A DNA stretch of 36,976 bases from Bacteroidaceae bacterium. GTDB taxonomy: Bacteria; Bacteroidota; Bacteroidia; Bacteroidales; Bacteroidaceae. The stretch lies in contig JAGCDE010000033.1 in assembly GCA_017651315.1 (NCBI GenBank), forward strand, positions 1 through 36,976, written 5' to 3'. The translations under genes were made by a program, and so were the position numbers. The notes under the pieces are model-generated. The model was not told the DNA's origin. It was given only the letters and a program-made list of their open reading frames with translations, and made no database searches. Of the stretch, positions 2,367 to 24,094 are shown one piece after another (the first letter of the stretch is position 1; every line of letters begins with the position of its first letter).

Positions 2367-2400
2367 GAGGCCGGCTAAAAAAATGCTTTTAGTCGGCCTC
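2367..2400. terminator. stem-loop terminator downstream of the DUF3127 gene
   Basis: GAGGCCGGCTAAAA (2367-2380) pairs with TTTTAGTCGGCCTC (2387-2400) with one mismatch and a six-base loop. It lies just past the stop of the minus-strand DUF3127 gene. A/T tracts in the stem are compatible with terminator action on the minus strand. Confidence 0.7.
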
Positions 2401-2408
2401 ATCCGATG

Positions 2409-2795
2409 TCAGAACGGAAGGTCATCCTTTTCGTTACTCGGGGCGAAGGGATCCGGGGCGGCAGCAGCGGGAGCGGCGGCGGCCGGAGCGTAAGGCTGGG
2501 CAGCGGGAGCGGCGCCGTTAACGTCGTGGCTTACGCGCCAGGCGCGGATGTCGTTGTACCAGCGGCCGTTGAACTCCCTGGCGTTGATATCAAAACTTAC
2601 AACCACCTCATCGCCCACACTGATTGCGGCCTGACGTATCTTGTCTTCACCGAAGATGCTGAACATCATCTTCTTGGGATACTGTTCATTGATTGTTTCC
2701 AGAACGAATTCCTGTATCATCCACGGATTGCCCGATGTCTTGGATGTACCCGACCTTGATTCAAGGGCAGCTATTATTTTTCCTGTAATCTCCAT
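2409..2795 (-). CDS. DUF3127 single-stranded-DNA-binding-like protein
   Basis: The 128-residue product has an OB-fold-like N-terminal part (about 1-85; MEITGKIIAAL, SGNPWMIQEFVLET, DEVVVSFDINAREFNGRWYNDIRAWRV), then an Ala/Pro-rich linker and an acidic tail ending NEKDDLPF. That end mimics the DDIPF tail of bacterial SSB, which recruits repair and replication proteins, so a role in single-stranded DNA handling is plausible. DUF3127 is typical of Bacteroidetes. It is transcribed away from dnaN, with a shared upstream region of 169 bases. The linker's repeated Ala/Pro codons explain the GC-rich low-complexity DNA at about 2450-2530. Confidence 0.85.
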   Translation of the reverse strand: MEITGKIIAALESRSGTSKTSGNPWMIQEFVLETINEQYPKKMMFSIFGEDKIRQAAISVGDEVVVSFDINAREFNGRWYNDIRAWRVSHDVNGAAPAAQPYAPAAAAPAAAAPDPFAPSNEKDDLPF

Positions 2796-2895
2796 AATTA
2801 TCCTTTTTCTTGTTTCGTCTGCGAATTTACGGTTTTATCTCATTACAGCCCCAACTTTTGTTACAATAATTTTTCGGTTTCCGATTACTTATCCT

Positions 2896-2903
2896 TATCT
2901 TTG
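2896..2903 (+). promoter_or_regulatory. -7 element of the dnaN promoter
   Basis: TATCTTTG matches the Bacteroides -7 consensus TAnnTTTG and lies about 60 bases before the dnaN start. No good TTTG -33 box stands at the right distance. Confidence 0.5.
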
Positions 2904-2964
2904 TAAAAGTATCGTGCACATATACGTGCCCGTTTTGCAGACTTTATAACAAAAAGACATATTT

Positions 2965-4089
2965 ATGAATTTCACAGTATCCAGTTCCGCTCTGACAAGC
3001 CGCCTGCAGGCTATCAGCAGGGTTATCAACCCCAAACCGGTCTATCCCATTCTTGACGATTTCCTGTTCCGCATAGAGGAAGGAAAGCTCACTGTTACCG
3101 CCGCCGACAATGACACCACCCTCGAGACTCTCATCGACCTCGTGGAGTGCGGAGGGGACGGCCAGCTCGCGCTCCCCGCCAAGACGCTCCTCGATGCACT
3201 CAAGGAGATTCCCGAACAGCCACTCAAGTTCACGGTTAACGCCAACACTTTTGAAACAGCAATAGAATATCAGAACGGAGAATACCGTCTGATGGGACAG
3301 AATGCCGACGAGTACCCTACCCCGGCTGTACTCCAGAGCGACCCCGTGTCACTTACGATCAAGGCTTCAATCCTCTCCGACGGCCTTACACGTACCATCT
3401 TCGCCACAGCCGACGATGAACTCCGTCCTGTAATGAACGGCATATACTTCGACATCAATGATGAGGGTGCCACTTTCGTGGCATCGGACGGGCACAAACT
3501 GGTATGCAGCAGGAACGCCACGCTGCAGACCGAGGGAAAGTCCTCCTTCATCCTGCCCAAGAAACCGGCCTCACTCTTCCGCAGCCTCATCGGCAAGGAC
3601 GTGGAGACGGTCACCATAGAGTTCGACAGCCGCATAGCAAGGTTCTCGCTGCCTGAGTTCCGTATGGTATGCCGCCTTATAGACGGACGTTACCCGAACT
3701 ATGCCTCCGTCATTCCGCAGAACAACCCGCATCACCTGACCATCGACCGCCAGACATTCATCAACGCCCTGCGTCGCGTGTCGGTTTTCTCACCGGCCAG
3801 CAGCGGACTCATCAAACTGCGCATACAGGAGAGCCAGATATCCATCTCCACACAGGACATAGATTTCTCCACTTCGGCCAACGAGACCCTCACCTGCCAG
3901 TATGACGGTATCCCTATGAGCATTGGCTTCAAGGCGAATTTCCTTATTGACATACTCAACAACATCCCGAGCCAGGAGATTGTGCTTCAGCTTGCCGACC
4001 CGTCACGTGCGGGAGTGATTGTACCGGCCGAACAGGCTCAGGACGAGAATCTGCTCATGTTGCTCATGCCTATGGTTCTTAACGACTGA
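2965..4089 (+). CDS. dnaN: DNA polymerase III sliding clamp (beta subunit)
   Basis: DnaN forms the ring-shaped dimer that tethers polymerase III and many repair enzymes to DNA. The 374 residues match the usual length and carry the three clamp domains. Recognisable family pieces include LRFI-like N-terminus (MNFTVSSSALTSRLQAISRVI), TIFATADDELRPVMNGIYFD, ATDGH-like ASDGHKLV at the second domain, and the C-terminal VIVPAEQ...LLMLLMPM. The stop overlaps the next start by one base (TGATG), so it leads an operon with an exonuclease. No dnaA is adjacent. Confidence 0.97.
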   Translation: MNFTVSSSALTSRLQAISRVINPKPVYPILDDFLFRIEEGKLTVTAADNDTTLETLIDLVECGGDGQLALPAKTLLDALKEIPEQPLKFTVNANTFETAIEYQNGEYRLMGQNADEYPTPAVLQSDPVSLTIKASILSDGLTRTIFATADDELRPVMNGIYFDINDEGATFVASDGHKLVCSRNATLQTEGKSSFILPKKPASLFRSLIGKDVETVTIEFDSRIARFSLPEFRMVCRLIDGRYPNYASVIPQNNPHHLTIDRQTFINALRRVSVFSPASSGLIKLRIQESQISISTQDIDFSTSANETLTCQYDGIPMSIGFKANFLIDILNNIPSQEIVLQLADPSRAGVIVPAEQAQDENLLMLLMPMVLND

Positions 4090-4850
4090 TGAGACTCAAA
4101 CTTGACAAACCCATAGTGTTCTTTGACCTGGAAACCACAGGCACGAACACGATCCAGGACCGTATCGTTGAGATAAGCTATCTCAAGGTGTGGCAAAACG
4201 GCAATGAGGACATGCACACACGCCGTGTCAATCCCGAGATGCACATACCTGAGGAGTCAACTGCAATTCACCATATTACCGATGACGATGTCCGGGACTG
4301 CCCGACTTTCAAGGAGATCGCCAAAGAGATTGCGCGTGACTTCGAAGGCTGTGACATTGCAGGTTTCAACTCCAACCGCTTTGACGTGCCTCTTCTGGCT
4401 GAGGAGTTCCTCCGTGCCGGAATTGACATTGACCTTAGCCGGCACCGCTTCATCGACGTGCAGGTCATATTCCACAAGATGGAGCAGCGTACCCTCTCTG
4501 CCGCCTACAGATTCTACTGCGGCAAGGAGCTGACCGATGCCCACAGTGCCGACGGCGACACACGTGCCACATACGAAGTGCTTATGGCACAGCTGGACCG
4601 TTATCCGGATCTCCCCAACGACATGGGAAAACTGTCAGAGTTCTCCTCTTTCACAAGGAACGTGGATTTTGCAGGGCGCATTATCCGCAACGACAAGGGC
4701 CAGGAGGTGTTTAATTTCGGCAAATACAAGGATATACCGGTGATTGAGGTGTTCCGCCGCGACCCCGGTTACTATTCATGGATACTTCAGGGGGATTTCC
4801 CGCTGAACACCAAACAGGTGCTGACAAGAATAAAACTACAGTCCCGATAA
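4089..4850 (+). CDS. 3'-5' exonuclease, DnaQ/epsilon-like, with C-terminal DUF3820-like module
   Basis: A DEDDh exonuclease: ExoI is FFDLETTG with D13 and E15, ExoII is FNSNRFD with D99, and ExoIII is AHSADGD with H152 and D157. It likely proofreads for polymerase III or trims DNA 3' ends during repair; being co-transcribed with dnaN supports a replication role. After about residue 200 a second small part (FNFGKYKDIPVIEVFRRDPGYYSWIL) resembles DUF3820, often attached to exonucleases of this group. It is coupled on both sides: the start overlaps dnaN by one base and the stop overlaps the coaBC start (ATAATGG). Whether it is the main epsilon subunit or an auxiliary exonuclease is not decidable here. 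Confidence 0.9.
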   Translation: MRLKLDKPIVFFDLETTGTNTIQDRIVEISYLKVWQNGNEDMHTRRVNPEMHIPEESTAIHHITDDDVRDCPTFKEIAKEIARDFEGCDIAGFNSNRFDVPLLAEEFLRAGIDIDLSRHRFIDVQVIFHKMEQRTLSAAYRFYCGKELTDAHSADGDTRATYEVLMAQLDRYPDLPNDMGKLSEFSSFTRNVDFAGRIIRNDKGQEVFNFGKYKDIPVIEVFRRDPGYYSWILQGDFPLNTKQVLTRIKLQSR

Positions 4851-6928
4851 TGGACAACATACTGAAAGGCAAACATATAGTATTAGGTATCACGGGCAGC
4901 ATCGCCGCTTACAAGGCTGCTGTCCTGGCACGACTGCTCGTTAAGGAGGGAGCGGAGGTGCAGGTGGTGATCACACCGGCGGGCAAGGAGTTCATCACTC
5001 CCCTAACACTCTCCACACTCACCCGCAAGCCCGTAATCAGCGAGTTTTTCAATAACCGTGACGGTTCGTGGAACAGCCACGTGGAACTAGGCCGGTGGGC
5101 CGATGCCATGCTGATAGCCCCATGCACCGCGGCCACTCTTGGCAAGATGGCAAGCGGTGTGGCGGACAACATGCTCACAACCACCTATTTCTCCATGAAG
5201 GCTCCGGTATTCATAGCTCCGGCCATGGACCTTGACATGTACAGTCACCCCGTAACCCAGCGTAACATTGAGACCCTGCGCTCCATAGGGAACACAGTAA
5301 TAGAGCCCGGAAGCGGAGAGCTTGCAAGCCAACTCACAGGCAAAGGCCGCATGAGGGAACCCGAGGAGATAATACAGGTGCTGGAGCAGCATTTCGCCGC
5401 CGGACTTGAACTTTCAAAAAAAAAAGTTCTCATAACCGTAGGTCCCACTCATGAGGCCATAGACCCTGTCCGTTTCATAGGCAACCACTCCACAGGCAAG
5501 ATGGGATTCGCGCTGGCCGAGGAGTGCGCTGCCGCCGGTGCCGATGTCACCCTGATAGCCGGTCCCGTGACGCTTGTCACGCAGAATCCGCGTATCACAA
5601 GAATTGACGTGACATCGGCTGCCGACATGTACCGTGAGGCCGTGGCCCGCTTCCCCGAGGCCGATGCCGCTATACTCTGCGCCGCTGTGGCCGACTATAC
5701 TCCGGAAATCGTATCGGATTCCAAAATCAAGCGCAAGGGGGAGATAACCCTCAGGCTTAAGCCTACCCGTGATATTGCCGCCGCACTCGGGGCCTCCAAG
5801 CGTCCTGGCCAGCGTCTCGTGGGATTCGCCCTTGAGACCGATGACGCGTTCACTAACGCACACGACAAGCTGGAACGTAAGAACCTTGACTTCATAGTGC
5901 TCAACTCCATGCGTGACAAGGGGGCAGGATTCGGCTATGACACCAACAAGGTGACCCTGATTGACAGTAAAAGCGAGGAGTCACTCCCGCTCATGTCCAA
6001 GAGGAGCGTGGCGGCGGCCATCGTTAAACGGCTTGCAGGCCTCTTCATCATGCTTCTGACGTTCCTCATACCCTCCACCCTAAGGGCGCAGGAACTTGAC
6101 CCGCAGGTCTCCTTCAACATCTCTAAGGTCCCGGGAACGGAGAGAAGCATCTTCTCCTCCCTCCAGAATGCCGTTCAGGAGCTGCTCAGGAACCAGTCAT
6201 GGACTGACTACCATTTTGCGGAGAACGAACGCATACAATGTGCATTCAACTTCACCGTGAACAAATATGACCAATCCACAGGCCAGATGGAGTGTGAGCT
6301 GATAGTCCAGAGCAACCGCCCTGTCTATAACTCATCCTACTACACCACGGTATTCAATTTCCGTGACCCGAGCGTGGATTTCGCCTACACTGAGCAGGAC
6401 CGTCTGGACTATACCCCGGGAAGCGTCGGCAACAATCTGGTGGCTGTCCTTGCCTACTACAGCCTGCTCATCATAGGGCTCGATTTCGACACCATGTCAC
6501 TCTATGGCGGCACAGACATACTCAGACAGGCCGAGTCGCTTGCAGCAAGTTCCCAGTCACTCGGGACAGGCTGGCGTTCATTCGATACAAACACAAACCG
6601 TTACACTATAATCAGCGACTATCTGAACGGCACTCTGGCACCGTTCCGTGAGCTTCAGTACAAGTATCACCGCAAAGGTCTGGATGACATGGCCGCCAAT
6701 GCCGACCGCGGGCGTGCCACCATCACGGAGAGCCTGGAACTGCTGTCAGCCACACGTCAGGCCAAGAGCACATCGGCCCTGCCTGACCTCTTCACCGAGA
6801 TAAAGAAGAACGAGCTCCTGAGCATCTACTCCAAGGGGATGGCCAAGGAGAAAGAGAAGGTAAGCGACCTGCTCACCCGCGTCAACCCGTCATTCACATC
6901 GGACTGGAATACCATAAAGACACAATAA
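4850..6928 (+). CDS. coaBC: CoaBC phosphopantothenoylcysteine synthetase/decarboxylase fused in frame to PorD-type DUF4835 protein
   Basis: The first 400 residues are CoaBC, which makes 4'-phosphopantetheine for coenzyme A: CoaC flavoprotein part (about 5-180; GITGSIAAYKAA, NMLTTTYFSMKAPVFIAPAMD) and CoaB part (about 185-397; VTVGPTHEAIDPVRFIGNHSTGKMG, LCAAVADYTP, KIKRKGE). With no stop codon the frame runs on into LFIMLLTFLIPSTLRAQE, a signal peptide, then DUF4835 (about 415-692), related to the type IX secretion protein PorD. Normally these are two neighbouring genes. Internal starts in frame could free the secreted part: GTG at 6008 (residue 387) or ATG at 6050 (residue 401). The start at 4850 was chosen over an upstream ATG at 4778 because it begins MDNILKGKHIVLGITG as in the family and overlaps the exonuclease stop. 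Confidence 0.85.
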   Translation: MDNILKGKHIVLGITGSIAAYKAAVLARLLVKEGAEVQVVITPAGKEFITPLTLSTLTRKPVISEFFNNRDGSWNSHVELGRWADAMLIAPCTAATLGKMASGVADNMLTTTYFSMKAPVFIAPAMDLDMYSHPVTQRNIETLRSIGNTVIEPGSGELASQLTGKGRMREPEEIIQVLEQHFAAGLELSKKKVLITVGPTHEAIDPVRFIGNHSTGKMGFALAEECAAAGADVTLIAGPVTLVTQNPRITRIDVTSAADMYREAVARFPEADAAILCAAVADYTPEIVSDSKIKRKGEITLRLKPTRDIAAALGASKRPGQRLVGFALETDDAFTNAHDKLERKNLDFIVLNSMRDKGAGFGYDTNKVTLIDSKSEESLPLMSKRSVAAAIVKRLAGLFIMLLTFLIPSTLRAQELDPQVSFNISKVPGTERSIFSSLQNAVQELLRNQSWTDYHFAENERIQCAFNFTVNKYDQSTGQMECELIVQSNRPVYNSSYYTTVFNFRDPSVDFAYTEQDRLDYTPGSVGNNLVAVLAYYSLLIIGLDFDTMSLYGGTDILRQAESLAASSQSLGTGWRSFDTNTNRYTIISDYLNGTLAPFRELQYKYHRKGLDDMAANADRGRATITESLELLSATRQAKSTSALPDLFTEIKKNELLSIYSKGMAKEKEKVSDLLTRVNPSFTSDWNTIKTQ

Positions 6929-15551: not shown

Positions 15552-15584
15552 TTCCAGGAAATCCCTTTTGTGTCATTCCTGGAA
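15552..15584 (-). terminator. hairpin overlapping the stop codon of the symporter-regulator gene
   Basis: TTCCAGGAA (15552-15560) pairs with TTCCTGGAA (15576-15584). The right arm encodes the final residues of the minus-strand gene, and its stop (15573-15575) falls in the loop. Confidence 0.45.
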
Positions 15585-17537
15585 ACAGTAGCCGAAACCG
15601 GCGCGTGTAGCCAGGCTGTCGGCATACGGCTCAATCTTTTTGCGGATGCGGGTGATGTTAACATCGACCGTGCGGGTATTGACTACGACGTCATCGGGCC
15701 AGATGGCCTGCAGCAGCTGCTCGCGTGAATAGACCACGCCGCGGTTCATCATGAACAGTTTAAGCAACTCATACTCTGTCTTGGTAAAAGAGACCGGCTT
15801 GCCGTCAACGGTAACCTCCTTGCTGTCAGTGTCAATCTGAATGCCTCTGTAGCGGATACCATTGCGGACGGTTCCTAAGCGGGATTCCACTACGTTTATG
15901 ATATAGTCGCCGGTCTTCTCGCATTCGCTTATCAGGTCCGAGAATACCGTTCCGCTGCCATAGCCGTAAGTATGCTGGTCCAGACTGTTTATATTCTCCT
16001 GTTTCAGGCGGTTGCGGCAGGCGTTGATGCTGTTCTCTATCTCCTCCGACAGGGTTATGTCATACTCCTCCCTACGGCCGGCCAGAAGCTCGTTCATACG
16101 GGTAAGTGCCTGGTCTATAAGTCCGAACATCTGACGGACTCCTTCCTCCTGTGTCTGGTTGAACTCAATCCTGTTCTCCTGCTTGCGGCGCATGATGCGT
16201 GCCAGGCCAAAGCAACTGTCACCGATTGACTCAAGTTCGCCAATCTGGCGGAGCATGGCGCGGATCTTCTCCTTGGTGTCATCCGACAGATGCGCATCGC
16301 CTACATCACCCAGATATTTGCCAATCTCCTGTTCCATACGGTCACTGCCGTCCTCGGTCTTCTCTATGCGCTCAAACAGTTTCTTGAACGCCTGCTCATC
16401 GGTAGTCTTGTAGAGCTCCTTCACCAGACCGAACATGTGCTGCATCTTCTCACCGAATATGACAATCTCCTTCTGTGCCTGGAAGACCGATATTTCCGGG
16501 GTTTTCATGATACCGCCGCGAATGAACTGCAAGCGGAACTCGTCCTCCTCATCGGCCTTGCCGGGTTTGATTATGTAGCAGACCAGTTTCTCTAACTGCG
16601 GGATGAAACCTATCAGCAATGAGGTGTTGATTACGTTGAACGCGGTGTGGAACGTAGCGAGCGCAAAAGTCAATCGTGAGGGGTCAACGGTATCGGTCGT
16701 AACGTCGATGCCAACCACACGGCAGACGGTGCGTACAAACGGGAAGAATATTATTAGCACCCAAATCACACCGAACACATTGAACAGAAGGTGAGCCATA
16801 GCCGCCCGGCGGGCCTGTGTGTTGGCTGAGAGTGCAGCAAGGTTAGCAGTGAGAGTGGTACCGATGTTCTCGCCCATAACCAGTGCGATACCCTGGAATA
16901 TCGATATGGCACCGGTTGAGCAGAGTACCATTGTGATGGCCATGAGTGCGGCCGATGACTGGGCGATACATGTCAGGATGGCACCTATTAAGAGGAACAG
17001 CAGTATTGTGCCGTAACTGCCGGAGTCAAATGATGCAAAAAAGTTCACCACCGCCGGGTTACTTGCCAGATCCATCTCGCGGCCGGTCTGGTTGAGCATT
17101 CCTAAGGCGAACAGCAGGAAACTGATTCCGAACAGGAAATCACCCACATAACGGTGCTTGCCCAATTGGATAAGTACGATTCCTATCAGGAATGCCGGCC
17201 AAACCAGATTGGCGATGTTGAAAGAGAATCCGGCCGACATAATCCAGGCACTCAGGGTGGTACCTATGTTGGCGCCCATTATGACCGATATGGCCTGGCT
17301 TAATGTGAGCAGCGCGGCGTTCACGAACGATACGGTCATTACCGTTGTTGCAGCCGATGACTGTACTGCTACTGTTACAAGTGCTCCTGTTGCTACTCCT
17401 GAGAACCGGTTTGTGGTCATTGCGCCCAACAGGTGACGCAGTTGCGGGCCCGCCATCTTCTGCAACGCCTCGCTCATGACCTTCATACCGTAGATGAGCA
17501 GGGCTATAGACCCTAAAAGCTTCAATACGATTAACAT
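15573..17537 (-). CDS. Na+/phosphate symporter with PhoU domain and C-terminal OmpR-type winged helix
   Basis: Residues 1-330 are a Na/Pi cotransporter of the NptA/YjbB type with the two inverted repeats, each with a QSSAA motif (59-63 and 193-197) and a G(A/E)NIGTT motif (88-94 and 222-228). Residues about 355-545 are a PhoU-like helical bundle. Residues 562-654 are a complete OmpR/PhoB winged helix (IQIDTDSKEVTVDGKPVSFTKTEYELLKLF, YSREQLLQAIWPDD, RTVDVNITRIRKKI, TRAGFGYCF). No receiver domain is present. A membrane phosphate carrier ending in a DNA-binding domain could sense phosphate or transport state and act directly on promoters, like an inverted ToxR/CadC protein. The frame is continuous, so it is not an annotation artefact of two overlapping genes. 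Confidence 0.9.
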   Translation of the reverse strand: MLIVLKLLGSIALLIYGMKVMSEALQKMAGPQLRHLLGAMTTNRFSGVATGALVTVAVQSSAATTVMTVSFVNAALLTLSQAISVIMGANIGTTLSAWIMSAGFSFNIANLVWPAFLIGIVLIQLGKHRYVGDFLFGISFLLFALGMLNQTGREMDLASNPAVVNFFASFDSGSYGTILLFLLIGAILTCIAQSSAALMAITMVLCSTGAISIFQGIALVMGENIGTTLTANLAALSANTQARRAAMAHLLFNVFGVIWVLIIFFPFVRTVCRVVGIDVTTDTVDPSRLTFALATFHTAFNVINTSLLIGFIPQLEKLVCYIIKPGKADEEDEFRLQFIRGGIMKTPEISVFQAQKEIVIFGEKMQHMFGLVKELYKTTDEQAFKKLFERIEKTEDGSDRMEQEIGKYLGDVGDAHLSDDTKEKIRAMLRQIGELESIGDSCFGLARIMRRKQENRIEFNQTQEEGVRQMFGLIDQALTRMNELLAGRREEYDITLSEEIENSINACRNRLKQENINSLDQHTYGYGSGTVFSDLISECEKTGDYIINVVESRLGTVRNGIRYRGIQIDTDSKEVTVDGKPVSFTKTEYELLKLFMMNRGVVYSREQLLQAIWPDDVVVNTRTVDVNITRIRKKIEPYADSLATRAGFGYCFQE

Positions 17538-17558: not shown

Positions 17559-17588
17559 CAAATATACAGAAACTCCTCCATCTGCAAA
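17559..17588 (-). promoter_or_regulatory. promoter of the symporter-regulator gene
   Basis: On the minus strand TTTG (plus 17585-17588) is followed after 18 bases by TATATTTG (plus 17559-17566), a near-ideal Bacteroides promoter 21 bases before the start codon. Confidence 0.7.
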
Positions 17589-17661
17589 ATAACCGGAAGC
17601 AATTGTAACAAAATCTTAATATCATAGAGAGAACACCCTCTAACAGGGGTTATATGGAACG

Positions 17662-17687: not shown

Positions 17688-18611
17688 CTAAGAATTGGCT
17701 TTGAGCCGGTCGGAGATAGCCACACGGTAGGATTCGCCTATGGGTATGATGCTGGCATTCTCCATTGTAATCTGTGTGCGGCTGTTGTTGATGATGCGGT
17801 TCAGGTTCACTATGTATGACTTGTGGACTCGGGCAAAACGGTCATCGGGCAACTGCTCAAGTATGCGTTTCATGCTCATGAGCACAACCAATGGCGTGGC
17901 GGCATCCAGATGGTATATCTTGAGGTATTCTCCCATGCCCTCAATATAGAGAATGTTATCGGGCTTGACGCGAACCTGCTTGTAATCAGTCTTGAAAGTC
18001 AGTTCCGTCTCTGCTTTCTGCAGATTGGCCGCGTTGCGGCTCATCTCTTCAAGCCTCTGCTGATGTTTCTGGTTCTCGGCCCTTAGGTCATCGACCTGCT
18101 TCTCGGTGTGCAGATTGCGCAGATACGCCATCACCCCAAGATCCACAAGAACAAGCAGCAGCCCTATAAGCAGTTTCATAACCTCCGGCCGCATGGGCCT
18201 GCGATGGTCATCCCTCATCATTGGAGTACGCATCTCATCCATTGGCGGACGCTCGCCCTCCATTGACGGACGGAAACCATCCGGAGGCGGCATCATGCCG
18301 TCCATGGGAGCCATGCTGTCTATAGGCGGGCGCATATCATCAGGTCTGGGAGGAGGTTCAGATCCCCTCTGCATCATGGGTGGAGGTCCCTGGAACTGTC
18401 CCGGACCACCCTGACGGAAATCCTGAGGATTGCCCACCTTGAAACAGTAAAAGCCGAATGCAGTGAGCAGCGCCAAAGTAACAGGCACATAAACAAACAG
18501 TTTCTTCTTGAAAAAGAGCGGAGCCAGCACAAAATGGTGCAGCAGGAGCAGCAGCAGATACGGCAATATCTGTATCATCACCCCCATAACATTGTTGTCC
18601 GGTCCTTGCAT
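17688..18611 (-). CDS. membrane-anchored LytTR transcriptional regulator with Met/Pro-rich loop
   Basis: The protein has three hydrophobic segments (about 14-32, 38-57, 146-163), a coiled coil (165-200) and a LytTR DNA-binding domain (about 205-303; IEGMGEYLKIYH, RFARVHKSYIVNLNRI, IPIGESYR). Between helices 2 and 3 lies an 85-residue loop with about 13 Met and many Pro (GPPPMM, MAPMDGMMPPPDG), predicted outside the cytoplasm: a possible metal or ligand sensor. It is divergent from the beta-helix lipoprotein operon it probably controls. The start is uncertain: a strong -7 box ends only 6 bases before ATG 18611, so translation may be leaderless or begin at 18587 (MGVMIQ) or 18578 (MIQILP). An upstream frame extension to 18920 lacks protein character. 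Confidence 0.82.
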   Translation of the reverse strand: MQGPDNNVMGVMIQILPYLLLLLLHHFVLAPLFFKKKLFVYVPVTLALLTAFGFYCFKVGNPQDFRQGGPGQFQGPPPMMQRGSEPPPRPDDMRPPIDSMAPMDGMMPPPDGFRPSMEGERPPMDEMRTPMMRDDHRRPMRPEVMKLLIGLLLVLVDLGVMAYLRNLHTEKQVDDLRAENQKHQQRLEEMSRNAANLQKAETELTFKTDYKQVRVKPDNILYIEGMGEYLKIYHLDAATPLVVLMSMKRILEQLPDDRFARVHKSYIVNLNRIINNSRTQITMENASIIPIGESYRVAISDRLKANS

Positions 18612-18616
18612 AAGTG

Positions 18617-18645
18617 CAAAATTAGTTTTTTTACCCTTCTGCAAA
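18617..18645 (-). promoter_or_regulatory. promoter of the LytTR regulator gene
   Basis: Minus-strand TTTG (plus 18642-18645), 17 bases, then TAATTTTG (plus 18617-18624). The implied transcript start falls at or just before the first possible start codon. Confidence 0.6.
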
Positions 18646-18647
18646 CC

Positions 18648-18679
18648 CGTTTTGTTGAGGAAAATGCGGCGTTTGTTGA
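18648..18679 (+). promoter_or_regulatory. direct repeat with 21-bp period, candidate LytTR binding site
   Basis: TTTGTTGA occurs at 18651-18658 and again at 18672-18679, inside longer matches CGTTTTGTTGA and CGTTTGTTGA. Two direct repeats one or two helical turns apart are the usual layout of LytTR sites. It lies between the regulator and its divergent neighbour, about 30 bases before a possible -7 element TACCTTAG at 18709. Confidence 0.45.
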
Positions 18680-18744
18680 ATATATTTTCAATAGTGAATA
18701 CTCTGGAATACCTTAGCGACAGGAAATCAAAAGAAAAAAACGAT

Positions 18745-21147
18745 ATGAAAAGAACAGCAACAATTCTTCTGGTATTACCGCTCTTATTAAGCGGTTGCAC
18801 CGGTGATGACATTACCGTAGTTGAACAGGAAAAGACTGGTGTATCAGTTGACTGTTCGGAACTCAACTCTGACATTGCCGCATTACAGTCATTATCCAAT
18901 GAGTGTATAGCCGGCAGCATGGTAACTTCTGTAAGTGATGGTACAATTTCTTTCTCATCAGGTCAAAAGACAACAGTCATTACCCGTTCCGCATACAGTT
19001 TTGATTATGCAAACCCTACCATTGGGGTAGGTTCGGCACAATGGCTGATTGACGGCACCGACATAAGTTCTGACTTTACGTCAGAGCTTCTGAGAATAAA
19101 AGGAGAAAACGGATACTGGTATGCCTACTACGGTGGAGAATGGAATAAGCTGTACGATATTTTTGAAGGCATCAGCATTCCTGTATTTTCAAGTCTTTCA
19201 GATGATGCAGACAGTGTATATATAACCCTGTCAGACGGCATCAGAATCAATATACCCAAATATTCTGGAGTTAATTACGTTACACTGTCCGAGAGTCTTG
19301 TAAAGCCACCTGTAGATGGCGGGGAATACTCATTGACCGTTACAGCCGGTGATGAATGGACTGCCGTCATATCCGAATCCTGGATAGGGCTGTCTGATGA
19401 GTATGGTGAACAAGGGGAAACCCAGGTTACTGTTACCGTTGAGCCTAATGAGGATACGGCACGGTCCGGATATGTGACTTTTACATCGGGTGATGTATGC
19501 GCCATTCTTACAGTAAACCAGGACGGGGAGTCCGGCGGCGGAATAATTGAGAATTCAGACACAGAGGAGAGTGAGGACAATGTGTCCTATACTGAATTTG
19601 ACCGCACCATATATATCACATATTCAGCATCTGGAGCCACTGTTAAGGGTGACGTTGACGGTATTACTGCAGTTACCGGTAATGATGTTACCGTGAATAA
19701 CACCACTGATGAAAAGATAATATACTACCTGAGCGGTACGGCACAAGACGGTTTCTTTAAGGTATATAGTTCTAAGAAACAGGCGATAATAATGGATGGG
19801 CTAAGCTTGACAAACAGGAACGGTGCCGCCATCAATAACCAGGGCAAGAAACGCTGTTTTGTAGTTGTTAAAGGAAACAACACTATTGCCGACGGATCAT
19901 CATACACCGACACACCATCGTCCGAGGATGAAAAAGCTGCTTTTTTCAGCGAGGGACAGCTAATATTCAGCGGAGATGGCACCCTTACAATAACGGCCAT
20001 CGGAAAGGCTGGAATTACAAGTGATGACTATGTGCGTTTCATGTCATCACCTACCGTTAAAGTCACATCGTCAGCCGGACACGGCATTCGCGGCAAGGAT
20101 GCGGTAATTGTATCAAACGGTATTATAAGTACAGATGTATCAGCCAACATGAAGAAGGGCATTACTTCGGACTCTCTGGTATGTATTGACGGAGGCTCTA
20201 CCACAATCAAGGTTACGGGATCAGCCGCGTATGACAGTGATGATGCCGAATACACAGGCACGGCAGGTATCAAGGCCGACCAGCGTTTTGAGATAAACGG
20301 AGGTACACTTACAATAACCAATTCAGGAACCGGCGGTAAGGGTATAAGCGGCGATGCCGTGGGATATTTTAACGGTGGCAATGTAAGAGTTACAACAACA
20401 GGTTCCAATTACGGCTCATCACAGGGGGGCCGGAACGGTTCTTCATCCAACAGTGTATCCGCCAAGGGTATAAAGTTTGACGGTAACCTGTACTTTAACG
20501 GCGGGACAGTGACTGTAAGTTGTAAGGCACATGAAGGGATAGAGTCTAAAGGCACCATCACGGTAACAGACGGTGTGGTGTACAGCTATTCGTCAGCTGA
20601 TGATGCCATAAATGCTGCCAGCACATTTACAATAGAAGGAGGTATGGTTTGCGGATATGCTACAAGTAATGACGGGCTTGACGCTAACGGAAACTTCTAT
20701 ATAAAGGAAGGTCTGGTTTATGCAATAGGATCCGGTTCACCTGAGCTTGCCGTCGATGCCAATACTGAATACGGCTACAAGCTTTATCTGCAAGGCGGTA
20801 CATTAATTGCAATAGGCGGTCTGGAATCAGGTGCCAGCCTCACTCAAAGCTGCTATCAGGCATCAGCATGGAATAAGAGCACATGGTATTCAATGACGGT
20901 AGGCAGCACCGTTATTGCCTTCAAGACCCCCGCATCAGGTGGTACACCTCTTGTGGTATCGGGGGAATCCACACCAACACTTAAGTCCGGTATTACAGTA
21001 TCGGGCGGCACAAGCTGGTTCGAAGGCATCCTGACCGCCGGTGGCTCTGTAAGCGGAGGCTCATCAGTATCACTTTCATCTTATACCGGCGGCAATGGCG
21101 GCGGAGGCAATCCAGGTGGCCCCGGCGGAGGCGGAAGAAAATGGTAA
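18745..21147 (+). CDS. lipoprotein with BACON and Cthe_2159-type polysaccharide-binding beta-helix
   Basis: An 800-residue surface lipoprotein: lipobox LLSGC (Cys at about residue 16), an N-terminal region of unknown type, a BACON-like domain (about 185-265; GGEYSLTVTAGDEWTAVISESWIGLSDEYG), then a beta-helical region (about 285-770) of the Cthe_2159 kind, whose founding member binds polygalacturonate. It has repeated Gly-Asn-Thr turns and motifs DGLDANGNFYIK and AHEGIESKG. The C-terminus is a Gly/Pro tail ending GGGGRKW. The start at ATG 18745 was chosen because the lipoprotein signal begins there; the frame extends upstream to 18508 but overlaps the LytTR gene. A paralogue follows two genes later. 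Confidence 0.8.
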   Translation: MKRTATILLVLPLLLSGCTGDDITVVEQEKTGVSVDCSELNSDIAALQSLSNECIAGSMVTSVSDGTISFSSGQKTTVITRSAYSFDYANPTIGVGSAQWLIDGTDISSDFTSELLRIKGENGYWYAYYGGEWNKLYDIFEGISIPVFSSLSDDADSVYITLSDGIRINIPKYSGVNYVTLSESLVKPPVDGGEYSLTVTAGDEWTAVISESWIGLSDEYGEQGETQVTVTVEPNEDTARSGYVTFTSGDVCAILTVNQDGESGGGIIENSDTEESEDNVSYTEFDRTIYITYSASGATVKGDVDGITAVTGNDVTVNNTTDEKIIYYLSGTAQDGFFKVYSSKKQAIIMDGLSLTNRNGAAINNQGKKRCFVVVKGNNTIADGSSYTDTPSSEDEKAAFFSEGQLIFSGDGTLTITAIGKAGITSDDYVRFMSSPTVKVTSSAGHGIRGKDAVIVSNGIISTDVSANMKKGITSDSLVCIDGGSTTIKVTGSAAYDSDDAEYTGTAGIKADQRFEINGGTLTITNSGTGGKGISGDAVGYFNGGNVRVTTTGSNYGSSQGGRNGSSSNSVSAKGIKFDGNLYFNGGTVTVSCKAHEGIESKGTITVTDGVVYSYSSADDAINAASTFTIEGGMVCGYATSNDGLDANGNFYIKEGLVYAIGSGSPELAVDANTEYGYKLYLQGGTLIAIGGLESGASLTQSCYQASAWNKSTWYSMTVGSTVIAFKTPASGGTPLVVSGESTPTLKSGITVSGGTSWFEGILTAGGSVSGGSSVSLSSYTGGNGGGGNPGGPGGGGRKW

Positions 21148-21212: not shown

Positions 21213-22445
21213 ATGGATGCAAGGTTTATTTTTATTGCAATAACGATATTCGCAGCCTGTACTGAATCTGACGCCCAGCCGGGACATGGCAGAAACGGTG
21301 AACGCGGCAATTCCGGCCTTAAGGCCCCTGCAGGAGCGGAATATGTCATCTCTGACGGCTCTGTAAAGGAACTGAAGGATGAGACGCTTGCCACAGTAGT
21401 TCCTGATTACAATGTAATACAGGTCACAAACGGCAAACTGACTCTTTCTGACTGTAATATCACAAAAAAAGGAGACTACAGCAGCAACTATACTGGCGAT
21501 GCCACAAGCTTTTACGGCACAAACTCGGCCGTATATGCATCGGGCAAGGAGTCTGTCATAAACATTAAAGACTGTATTGTGACAACTGTTTCCAAGGGCT
21601 CAAACGCTGTTTTCGCCACAAACGGCGCGAGGATAGACATTAATGGAATAAATATTGACAACTCTGCAAGCGTGTCACGCGGACTGCATTGTACAGACGG
21701 CGGGATAATAAGCGCATCAAACGTAAACATAACCACACGGAGTGAGACAAGCTCGGCCATTGCAACAGACCGTGGCGGAGGTACAGTCAATGTTACAGGT
21801 GGCTCAGTTACGGCCAAAGGCAGTAAGTCTGCCGTAATATACAGTACAGGAGACATTTCCGTGACAGACATAACAGGAGTGTCCGAAAAAGGGCCGGTTG
21901 CTACTGTTGAGGGGAGTAATCGTGTCACTATCAATGACAGCCGGATGACATCTCATTCTGATACACGCGGAATTCTTTTGCATCAGTCCACATCGGGCGA
22001 TGCCGATGGCTCCAATCCGGTCTGCACCGTGACCAACAGTACGTTAAGCGTCACCAGTACCGGGGCGCCGCTCTGTTTTGTAACCAATGTGTCGGGCACT
22101 CTTACCCTGACCGATGTCACCCTAAATGTAGCCAGCGGAAAACTGATGAGTGTAGAGTACTATAAGCGCGGTAACGGATCAACTGGTCATCTTGTGCTCA
22201 ACACCACTAAGGACTCATGGACTTACAACGGTGACGTATGCGCTGATGATGTAAACAATGTCAGTGTTACAGTAGGTAACAACGTGACCTGGAACGGAGC
22301 AGCCAATACCGGCAACACTGCAAAATCTGCAACAGTGACGGTTGAAAAGGGTGCCGTATGGAACTTGACTGCAGATACATATCTGACAGGGCTAAACAAT
22401 AACGGAACTATAAATGAAGGCGATTTCAAGATTCATATCCGATGA
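21213..22445 (+). CDS. secreted right-handed beta-helix lipoprotein
   Basis: A 410-residue protein with a short N-terminal hydrophobic stretch and lipobox (IFAAC, Cys15). The rest is a series of beta-strand turns rich in Asn, Thr, Ser, Gly (INIKDCIVTTVSKGSNAVFATNGARIDINGINIDNS), the pattern of adhesin- or pectate lyase-like parallel beta-helices; no catalytic residues are recognised. It lies between two Cthe_2159-type paralogues and overlaps the next gene by four bases (ATGA), so the three are one operon. It probably binds or organises a polysaccharide on the cell surface (inference). Confidence 0.7.
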   Translation: MDARFIFIAITIFAACTESDAQPGHGRNGERGNSGLKAPAGAEYVISDGSVKELKDETLATVVPDYNVIQVTNGKLTLSDCNITKKGDYSSNYTGDATSFYGTNSAVYASGKESVINIKDCIVTTVSKGSNAVFATNGARIDINGINIDNSASVSRGLHCTDGGIISASNVNITTRSETSSAIATDRGGGTVNVTGGSVTAKGSKSAVIYSTGDISVTDITGVSEKGPVATVEGSNRVTINDSRMTSHSDTRGILLHQSTSGDADGSNPVCTVTNSTLSVTSTGAPLCFVTNVSGTLTLTDVTLNVASGKLMSVEYYKRGNGSTGHLVLNTTKDSWTYNGDVCADDVNNVSVTVGNNVTWNGAANTGNTAKSATVTVEKGAVWNLTADTYLTGLNNNGTINEGDFKIHIR

Positions 22446-24094
22446 GAGCATTATACCATTTCTTATTACCAACGTTACTTATTGCATGTAGCGCACACAG
22501 TTCAGGTCAGGATTCGGGTACAGGTTTCAACATTAATGAGTATGACCGTACCGTCAGGGTTGAATTTTCAGGGAGTGGTGTACAGGTGACGGGAGATACC
22601 AATAATACTGTAACCGTTCACGGCAGTCATGTAACTGTAAACAACAAGACTGATGAAACAGTGGCTTATGAACTGTCGGGAACTGCACATGACGGTTCTG
22701 TCAAACTGTACAGCAACAGGAAACAGGCTTTGGTCCTGGATAACCTTAACCTGACAAACTCAACTGGAGCAGCCATAAATAACCAGAGTAAGAAAGAATG
22801 TTACGTAGTAATAAAAGGTACAAACAGCCTTAAGGATGCGGCATCATATACGACCACCCCGTCCGATGAGGATGAGAAGGCTGCCCTTTTCAGCGAGGGA
22901 GAGCTGATAATCTGCGGTAAAGGAACATTAAACGTAACAGCAGCCGGAAAATCCGGTATCAGCAGTGATGACTATGTCAGGATAACAGAGGAACCTGTAA
23001 TTAACGTAATTTCAGCGGCAGGTCACGGAATCCGCGGAAAGGAGTCTGTCGTTATAGAAGGCGGAGCAATAGGCATCCTTGTATCGGCCGATATGAAAAA
23101 AGGCATAATATCAGATTCAATGGTACTTATAACCGGAGGCAGTACAAATATCAGTGTGACAGGAGCAGCAGCATTAGATACAGTGAATGGAGAATACAAG
23201 GGCACTTCTGGTATCAAGGCTGACCGCAGGTTTGAGATTACTGCGGGTACGCTTGACATAGTCTGTTTCGGGGCAGGCGGCAAGGGTATAAGCGGAGACG
23301 GTACAGGCTGTTTCAGCGGTGGCAGAGTACGCGTAACCACAATAGGCTCCAACCTCGGTACAACAGACAGGGGACGTGGCTTTTCATCAAACAGCGCATC
23401 GGCCAAGGGCATAAAGTTTGACGGCAACATTGTATTCCAGGGCGGAACGGTGTCTGTAAACAGTGAAGCGCATGAGGGCATAGAGTCCAAGAGTGACATA
23501 ATTGTGAAAGGAGGCTCGGTTTACAGCTATTCGGCCGCTGATGATGCAATAAACTCCGGCGGCACATTTACCATTGAAAGCGGTAATGTATATGGCTGTT
23601 CAGCACGCAATGACGGTCTGGATGCAAACGGCAACTTCTACATCAAAGGCGGTCTGGTATATGCCATAGGGAGCAGAGTTCCAGAGGTGGCAATTGATGC
23701 CAATACCGAAAGAGGATACAGGCTCTACATACAGGGCGGTACGCTGATTGCCATCGGAGGGCTGGAGTCTGGCGCAAGTCTCAATCAGAACTGCTATCAG
23801 GCATCTTCATGGACCGGAAACACGTTATACTCTCTTACGGTAGGCGCTGATGTGATTGCGTTCAGGACTCCATCAAGTGGCGGCACACCCATGGTGGTAT
23901 CGGGCGCATCGGCACCTGTTCTTATGGCTGGTGTGACCACTACAGACGGCGCGGCGATAATGGAGGGCATGATAATAACGGACGCATCGGTCAGTGGAGG
24001 CTCCCAGGTTTCATTGTCATCCTACACAGGCGGCTCTGGCGGAGGCTTTGGTCCCGGCGGTGGCGGTCCCGGCGGCAGGCCTGGCGGTTGGTGA
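22442..24094 (+). CDS. lipoprotein with Cthe_2159-type carbohydrate-binding beta-helix (paralogue)
   Basis: The 550-residue product has lipobox LLIAC (Cys16) and then the same beta-helical domain as the 18745 gene, closely matched in stretches such as KLYSNRKQALVLDNLNLTN, SDEDEKAALFSEGELI, AGHGIRGKESV, AHEGIESKS and NDGLDANGNFYIKGG. It lacks the BACON region, and ends in a Gly-rich tail finishing GGRPGGW. The two paralogues and the beta-helix protein between them look like a tandem set derived by duplication. Control by the divergent LytTR protein is likely. Confidence 0.8.
   Translation: MRALYHFLLPTLLIACSAHSSGQDSGTGFNINEYDRTVRVEFSGSGVQVTGDTNNTVTVHGSHVTVNNKTDETVAYELSGTAHDGSVKLYSNRKQALVLDNLNLTNSTGAAINNQSKKECYVVIKGTNSLKDAASYTTTPSDEDEKAALFSEGELIICGKGTLNVTAAGKSGISSDDYVRITEEPVINVISAAGHGIRGKESVVIEGGAIGILVSADMKKGIISDSMVLITGGSTNISVTGAAALDTVNGEYKGTSGIKADRRFEITAGTLDIVCFGAGGKGISGDGTGCFSGGRVRVTTIGSNLGTTDRGRGFSSNSASAKGIKFDGNIVFQGGTVSVNSEAHEGIESKSDIIVKGGSVYSYSAADDAINSGGTFTIESGNVYGCSARNDGLDANGNFYIKGGLVYAIGSRVPEVAIDANTERGYRLYIQGGTLIAIGGLESGASLNQNCYQASSWTGNTLYSLTVGADVIAFRTPSSGGTPMVVSGASAPVLMAGVTTTDGAAIMEGMIITDASVSGGSQVSLSSYTGGSGGGFGPGGGGPGGRPGGW

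Follow-up and report, generated by a model that had tools for sequence, protein, structure and literature searches.

A single gene in the window (the whole analyzed stretch of 36,976 nucleotides, from a draft genome that is 83% complete) encodes a sodium/phosphate symporter, a PhoU domain and a PhoB-type DNA-binding domain in one polypeptide, and appears to be a membrane-bound, one-protein phosphate regulator that was born of a fusion between nptA and phoB, activates itself and replaces the PhoR-PhoB pair in most of its carriers; we put the probability of this reading at about 0.6. Under the proposed mechanism, the membrane part would import phosphate together with sodium, the PhoU domain would signal the transport state, and the PhoB domain joined to it would bind a Pho-box-like repeat beside its own promoter and, when phosphate is short, would activate its own gene without a kinase, so that the fusion would have taken over from the PhoR-PhoB two-component system in most carriers. 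From the sequence, we infer that the protein binds DNA, that it activates rather than represses, that phosphate is the signal and that PhoU is the switch. The gene and its domains are as follows.

15573..17537, minus strand: whole fused gene, Na/Pi symporter, PhoU and PhoB-type winged helix; a single frame of 654 amino acids with an ATG start.
16563..17537, minus strand: Na/Pi symporter (NptA/SLC34-like) membrane domain, residues 1-325 (TIGR00704, two Na_Pi_cotrans matches, model helices, invariant columns).
15876..16499, minus strand: PhoU domain, residues 347-554, six long helices (Pfam PhoU, model, alignment).
15852..15875, minus strand: junction, residues 555-562 (low model confidence at 557-559; the unfused NptA proteins of relatives stop nearby).
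15576..15851, minus strand: PhoB-type winged-helix DNA-binding domain, residues 563-654 (Pfam, NCBIfam, alignment with E. coli PhoB, model, fold match).
15636..15677, minus strand: predicted recognition helix, residues 621-634, TRTVDVNITRIRKK (model helix, alignment with E. coli PhoB).

The sequence-only reading had recognized an NptA-type carrier, a PhoU domain and a winged helix in this uninterrupted frame, and the Pfam and NCBIfam searches confirm all three. Na_Pi_cotrans matches in two stretches with 179.7 bits, TIGR00704 (Na/Pi symporter II-related) covers residues 1-325 above its own cut-off, PhoU also matches in two stretches (33.7 bits, the best at 362-448), and Trans_reg_C covers residues 579-652 with 78.4 bits against a cut-off of 26.2. 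Residues 558-653 correspond to positions 130-225 of the 225-position Bacteroidetes PhoB model NF053854, the score of 118 bits falling short of the 270-bit family cut-off, and no receiver domain is found in the fused protein by this comparison or by the Pfam scan. Among solved structures, the E. coli PhoB effector domain is closest in sequence to the winged helix, and the top fold match is 1gxp, PhoB on pho box DNA. Across 64 fused sequences, the QSS motifs of the two Na_Pi_cotrans repeats (Q59-S61 and Q193-S195), which we take to be the signature of the Na/Pi symporter family, are invariant, and so are the three ExxxD pairs of the PhoU domain (E395/D399, E436/D440 and E540/D544), presumably the signature motif of the PhoU family. 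Judging by its family, the symporter part is predicted to perform sodium-driven phosphate transport. The AlphaFold2 model built from the 64 fused sequences has a mean pLDDT of 80.2 and a pTM of 0.48, which leaves the packing of the domains unfixed, and shows low confidence for the link between PhoU and the winged helix (residues 557-559). Among 14 genus members of equal length (91 pairs), the median dN/dS is 0.033 for the symporter (87 usable pairs), 0.077 for PhoU (89 pairs) and 0.070 for the winged helix (79 pairs); thus, the winged helix is under purifying selection in the genus, with dN/dS of about 0.07.

Elsewhere in the window, a LytTR regulator (minus strand) adjoins a Cthe_2159 carbohydrate-binding-like protein (plus strand) at 17688-21147, a second Cthe_2159 protein is encoded at 22442-24094, and a single 716-amino-acid frame at 4778-6928 (plus strand) combines CoaBC-type domains (Flavoprotein and DFP) with DUF4835.

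The fusion is present in 21 of the 37 genomes of its genus, and these genomes seem to have given up the canonical regulators. A PhoR profile built from 8 PhoR proteins encoded beside phoB finds matches in 5 of the 37, the same five that have a stand-alone PhoB above the family cut-off, four of which contributed rows to the profile. Neither PhoR nor a stand-alone PhoB was found in any of the 21 fused genomes, including one that is 100% and one that is 97% complete, and the window's own genome, at 83% completeness, has no PhoR match. Neither the fusion nor PhoB was detected in the other 11 genomes, four of them at least 90% complete, so that phosphate regulation can simply disappear. In a sample of 201 genomes of the family, in which, for most of the genomes listed, the best 7 candidates were scored, PhoR was detected in 123, namely 1 of the 18 fused genomes (two of which, G063 and G152, have incomplete fused frames) against 122 of the 183 others; most of these genomes are drafts, and the Fisher tests ignore relatedness. 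PhoR was found in 6 of 48 further fused genomes, listed without completeness values, with at most 31 candidates scored per genome; in one fused isolate, Prevotella ruminicola KHT3, no PhoR match turned up among the 31 candidates scored out of 40. Overall, assuming that no genome is counted twice, and with mostly draft assemblies, PhoR is kept in 7 of 79 fused genomes and was not found in 72, so that replacement of PhoR-PhoB appears to be common but incomplete.

Among the 10 fused genomes outside the genus, PhoB is matched above the cut-off in G122 only. At locus L095 of this carrier (2374-4311, minus strand), PhoB is short in the receiver and two frames share the PhoR sequence between them, as if the genes were decaying or wrongly assembled.

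Matches to PstA occur in 5 of the 21 fused genus genomes (G000, G104, G209, G147 and G224) and are poor evidence of a phosphate Pst system because a gene resembling the PAPS-reductase-domain gene of G000 follows in four of the five, the contig of G224 ending earlier (Pfam was searched with five proteins from the G000 operon and one from G224, and the remainder were compared by eye). In G000 (contig C19, L257:3168-9615, and likewise in L258-L262), the Pst-like ABC transporter is preceded by an Rrf2 regulator and consists of a 646-amino-acid protein that fuses the substrate-binding part with a permease, a second permease and an ATPase; it is followed by genes for a PAPS-reductase-domain protein and an EF-Tu-type GTPase, read as cysD/cysN-like. 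This Pst-type transporter is perhaps used for sulfate.

With neither a receiver nor a kinase found, the DNA-binding domain would have to be controlled from within the same protein, the simplest route being PhoU and the state of transport. The same lack of a receiver in the Pfam and NCBIfam searches also fits a protein that senses no phosphate at all, in which the receiver-free PhoB domain would be always active and would keep the symporter gene on. On its own, the E. coli PhoB effector domain is active constitutively, and the low model confidence of the link between PhoU and the winged helix points the same way. Nevertheless, PhoU retains its ExxxD pairs and is under constraint, which argues against such unregulated self-activation and makes it unlikely.

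The proposed self-activation depends on the DNA upstream of the gene, where three elements can be distinguished.

17602..17620, minus strand: Pho-box-like 11-bp direct repeat ATTAAGATTTTGTTACAAT, upstream of the fused gene.
17585..17588, minus strand: TTTG, a possible -33 element of a Bacteroidetes-type promoter (read from the sequence, the promoter type being presumed from general knowledge).
17559..17566, minus strand: -7 element TATATTTG (TAnnTTTG), 54 bp downstream of the box start; conserved.

The sequence-only reading also credited the gene with a good promoter. In the sigma-70 sense, this did not hold, with matches upstream of the gene at chance level (2 found and 2.3 expected), but the gene is preceded by TTTG-N18-TATATTTG, with a conserved -7 element, and TTTG-N18-TAnnTTTG is the arrangement that we take to be the Bacteroidetes-type promoter. 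The box is present in all 17 readable promoters of the genus, the window included; 16 of these match the pattern RTTAAGATNNTGTTAnAAT, which was derived from the same promoters in which it was counted, and the remaining one (G220) carries the variant GTTACAATTTCATTACA. The box starts exactly 54 bp before the TAnnTTTG -7 element in 15 of the 16 pattern-matching promoters and in G220. In 15 pattern-matching promoters (the set leaves out G104, which is too short, and G220, which does not match), the mean pairwise identity is 34% in the 40 bp before the box and 51% between the box and the -7 element, compared with 95% in the 19-bp box itself, a value that is inflated because the rows were chosen by the pattern.

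Related repeats are found beyond the genus. In the other clade of fused genes, all 8 members that were read have a repeat resembling TGTAACC-N4-TGTAAC about 50 bp before TAnnTTTG. With strict forms of both patterns, 39 of 63 fused promoters contain the box, compared with 3 of 23 unfused ones (named public genomes). Twenty-four promoters of the other fused clade served to train a matrix; applied to held-out sequences, with 150 shuffles of each, it gave p<0.05 for 19 of the 29 fused promoters in the window's clade, the other 10 failing the shuffle test, and for all 10 relatives' promoters that precede either a stand-alone phoB (8) or an nptA-phoB operon (2). In the window's clade, the best matrix match is oriented opposite to that in the other fused clade. 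Among unfused nptA promoters, 7 of 21 pass at the same threshold: L091, L092, L242 and L247, which belong to the nptA clade containing the phoB-linked L091 and L092 (these two are counted in both the phoB/operon and the unfused sets), and L234, L236 and L251, which lie outside that clade and show that the p<0.05 threshold lacks specificity. The most plausible reading of the site is a candidate Bacteroidales Pho box. The PhoB protein of B. fragilis binds the pst promoter, and the words ‘consensus' and ‘motif' do not appear in the main text of that report (PMC3547664).

In the window's own genome (83% complete), the exact box occurs once, upstream of the fused gene, which makes self-regulation a firm prediction. 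Sites at other pho genes of this genome, for which a search had been recommended on the basis of the sequence alone, did not materialize, the exact box being confined to the fused gene; with up to 3 mismatches allowed, the genus motif yields 10 matches in this genome and 12 in the control, that is, no excess. Across the 37 genus genomes, no conserved second target was recognized among the matches listed. In G161 and G219 (L150 and L151), an exact box-like repeat is located between a gene that, by sequence, resembles a uracil permease and another gene. The proposal of a one-protein sensor-regulator is borne out in part: it fits the PhoB-type domain, the Pho-box-like site and the missing PhoR in the great majority of carriers, and the single occurrence of the exact box favors self-regulation over a pho regulon.

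A box that occurs only at its own gene could also serve a repressor, the protein binding its promoter region and limiting its own amount, with negative feedback by the number of transporters. The position of the box, upstream of both the TTTG and the -7 elements, argues against repression and suggests activation, as sites upstream of the promoter elements are in the usual activator position. Furthermore, a similar motif precedes phoB genes, and the PhoB protein of B. fragilis (BF1576) is reported to be an activator of pstC (PMC3547664), so that self-repression seems improbable.

The DNA-binding domain and the box tend to be kept or lost together. When the 64 fused genes are tallied with a matrix score of 0 as the cut (24 of the 64 supplied the training promoters of the matrix), 51 combine the box with an intact recognition helix, 9 lack both, 4 retain the helix alone and no gene retains the box alone, so that 13 lack a box by the matrix. 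A plain test of this association gives p = 2.6e-8, which overstates the case because the tree implies only 4-5 changes, with one well-supported independent pair. In the nine genes with an altered recognition helix and no box (L171, L172, L176, L178-L181, L196 and L225), the pattern suggests that DNA recognition has been relaxed or changed. Two relatives inside the window's clade (L229 and L232) are missing both the winged helix and the box. These two losses and the nine altered genes are what would be expected if the winged helix were a leftover that binds no DNA and serves in folding or protein contacts only. This possibility was judged to be quite improbable given the dN/dS of 0.07 of the winged helix in the genus and the joint retention of the recognition helix and the box in 51 of the 64 genes.

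The fusion is rare across the order, being found in 2 of 393 genomes of an even sample, one of which is the window's own. In named public genomes, from which at least 79 loci were retained out of at least 575 confirmed candidates, 74 of the 79 loci encode the fusion in one frame (among the matches listed, some of them clipped by contig ends). Of these 74, 24 carry the label of Prevotellaceae, 7 of Bacteroidaceae, 4 of Paludibacteraceae, and 1 each of Muribaculaceae and Salinivirgaceae, and 37 have no family label; isolates with the fusion include Prevotella ruminicola KHT3, Prevotella sp. khp7 and P. aff. ruminicola Tc2-24. Ruminant or RUG/RGIG/RUI labels (the RUG series being, presumably, rumen genomes) accompany 57 of the 74 fused loci, a raw share that does not by itself imply enrichment. 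Among the 20 other genus members read, five frames (L057, L060, L069, L071 and L076) have a start that is missing, altered or differently spelled, and that of L057 contains an ambiguous residue. Although the window's own genome is an incomplete draft, an artefact of sequencing or assembly, the circumstance under which the sequence-only reading would have fallen, is practically negligible and was rejected because the same fusion recurs in 21 of the 37 genus genomes and in 74 of the 79 loci from other assemblies, including isolates such as P. ruminicola KHT3, with a winged helix under purifying selection.

Traces of the origin of the fusion can be discerned in gene order. In G185 and G084, nptA, phoB and phoR are consecutive on one strand, and nptA stops near the point where the winged helix of the fusion starts; in G214, which belongs to the window's genus, nptA and phoB-phoR are divergent neighbors. 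A tree built on the NptA-PhoU part places the unfused clade that includes G185 and G084 as the sister of one of the fused clades (support of 93/89). The nptA-phoB-phoR neighborhood is therefore a likely source of the fusion: loss of the nptA stop codon next to phoB, along with loss of the PhoB receiver, would yield the fused gene. The unconstrained tree splits the two fused clades, but a tree that unites them is not significantly worse (AU p 0.257), and the winged helix is too short for its own tree to distinguish one fusion origin from two. Taken together, this looks like a two-component system shrinking into a one-component system, in which unfused neighbors and fused genes can still be seen alongside secondary losses and a genome whose PhoR looks broken and whose PhoB is shortened.

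How PhoU and transport inform PhoR about phosphate is a long-standing question. Here, the kinase is seemingly gone, and the transporter, PhoU and the PhoB output are in one chain, so that the signal path would run inside the protein, and signaling by PhoU becomes testable with one gene and one candidate binding site in carriers that are in culture (P. ruminicola KHT3 and others). A bolder version of the self-activation scheme, which we consider tentative and somewhat short of an even chance, is that the symporter itself is the transcription factor, the phosphate flux, as read by PhoU, directly switching the PhoB domain, so that the Pst/PhoU/PhoR/PhoB chain would have collapsed into one protein that spread among rumen Bacteroidales partly by gene exchange. 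The rumen is rich in both sodium and phosphate.

The architecture can be compared with several known systems. NptA/SLC34-type symporters with PhoU (TIGR00704, PF02690) match the entire N-terminal part of the fusion, including the QSS motifs, whereas unfused relatives (for example, L229, L232, L091 and L092) stop after PhoU. PhoB, both in E. coli and in B. fragilis (BF1576, PMC3547664), shares with the fusion a winged helix of the same family and a direct-repeat site near the promoter; unlike PhoB, the fused protein has no receiver, is tied to a membrane transporter and coexists with PhoR in only the few carriers counted above. Combining a DNA-binding domain and a membrane region in one protein, it falls under the broad definition of transmembrane transcription regulators; regulation of transcription from the membrane is predicted, the box upstream of the gene being circumstantial evidence. 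Like ToxR and CadC, the fusion is a membrane protein with its own DNA-binding domain. Members of the ToxR family have an N-terminal DNA-binding domain, one membrane helix and a periplasmic sensor (PMC5936718), whereas in the fusion, a multi-helix transporter and PhoU precede the DNA-binding domain, which lies at the C-terminus. In the open-licence papers that were searched, no description of the symporter-PhoU-winged-helix architecture was found. A survey of transmembrane transcription regulators, in its accessible part, describes proteins with up to 22 membrane regions, mentions no transporter-based regulator and presents Rsp of Neisseria gonorrhoeae as a PilS-PilR chimera (PMC10269533). Like the fusion, Rsp joins a membrane receptor part to the DNA-binding domain of a response regulator, but Rsp derives from a kinase receptor, and the fusion from a transporter.
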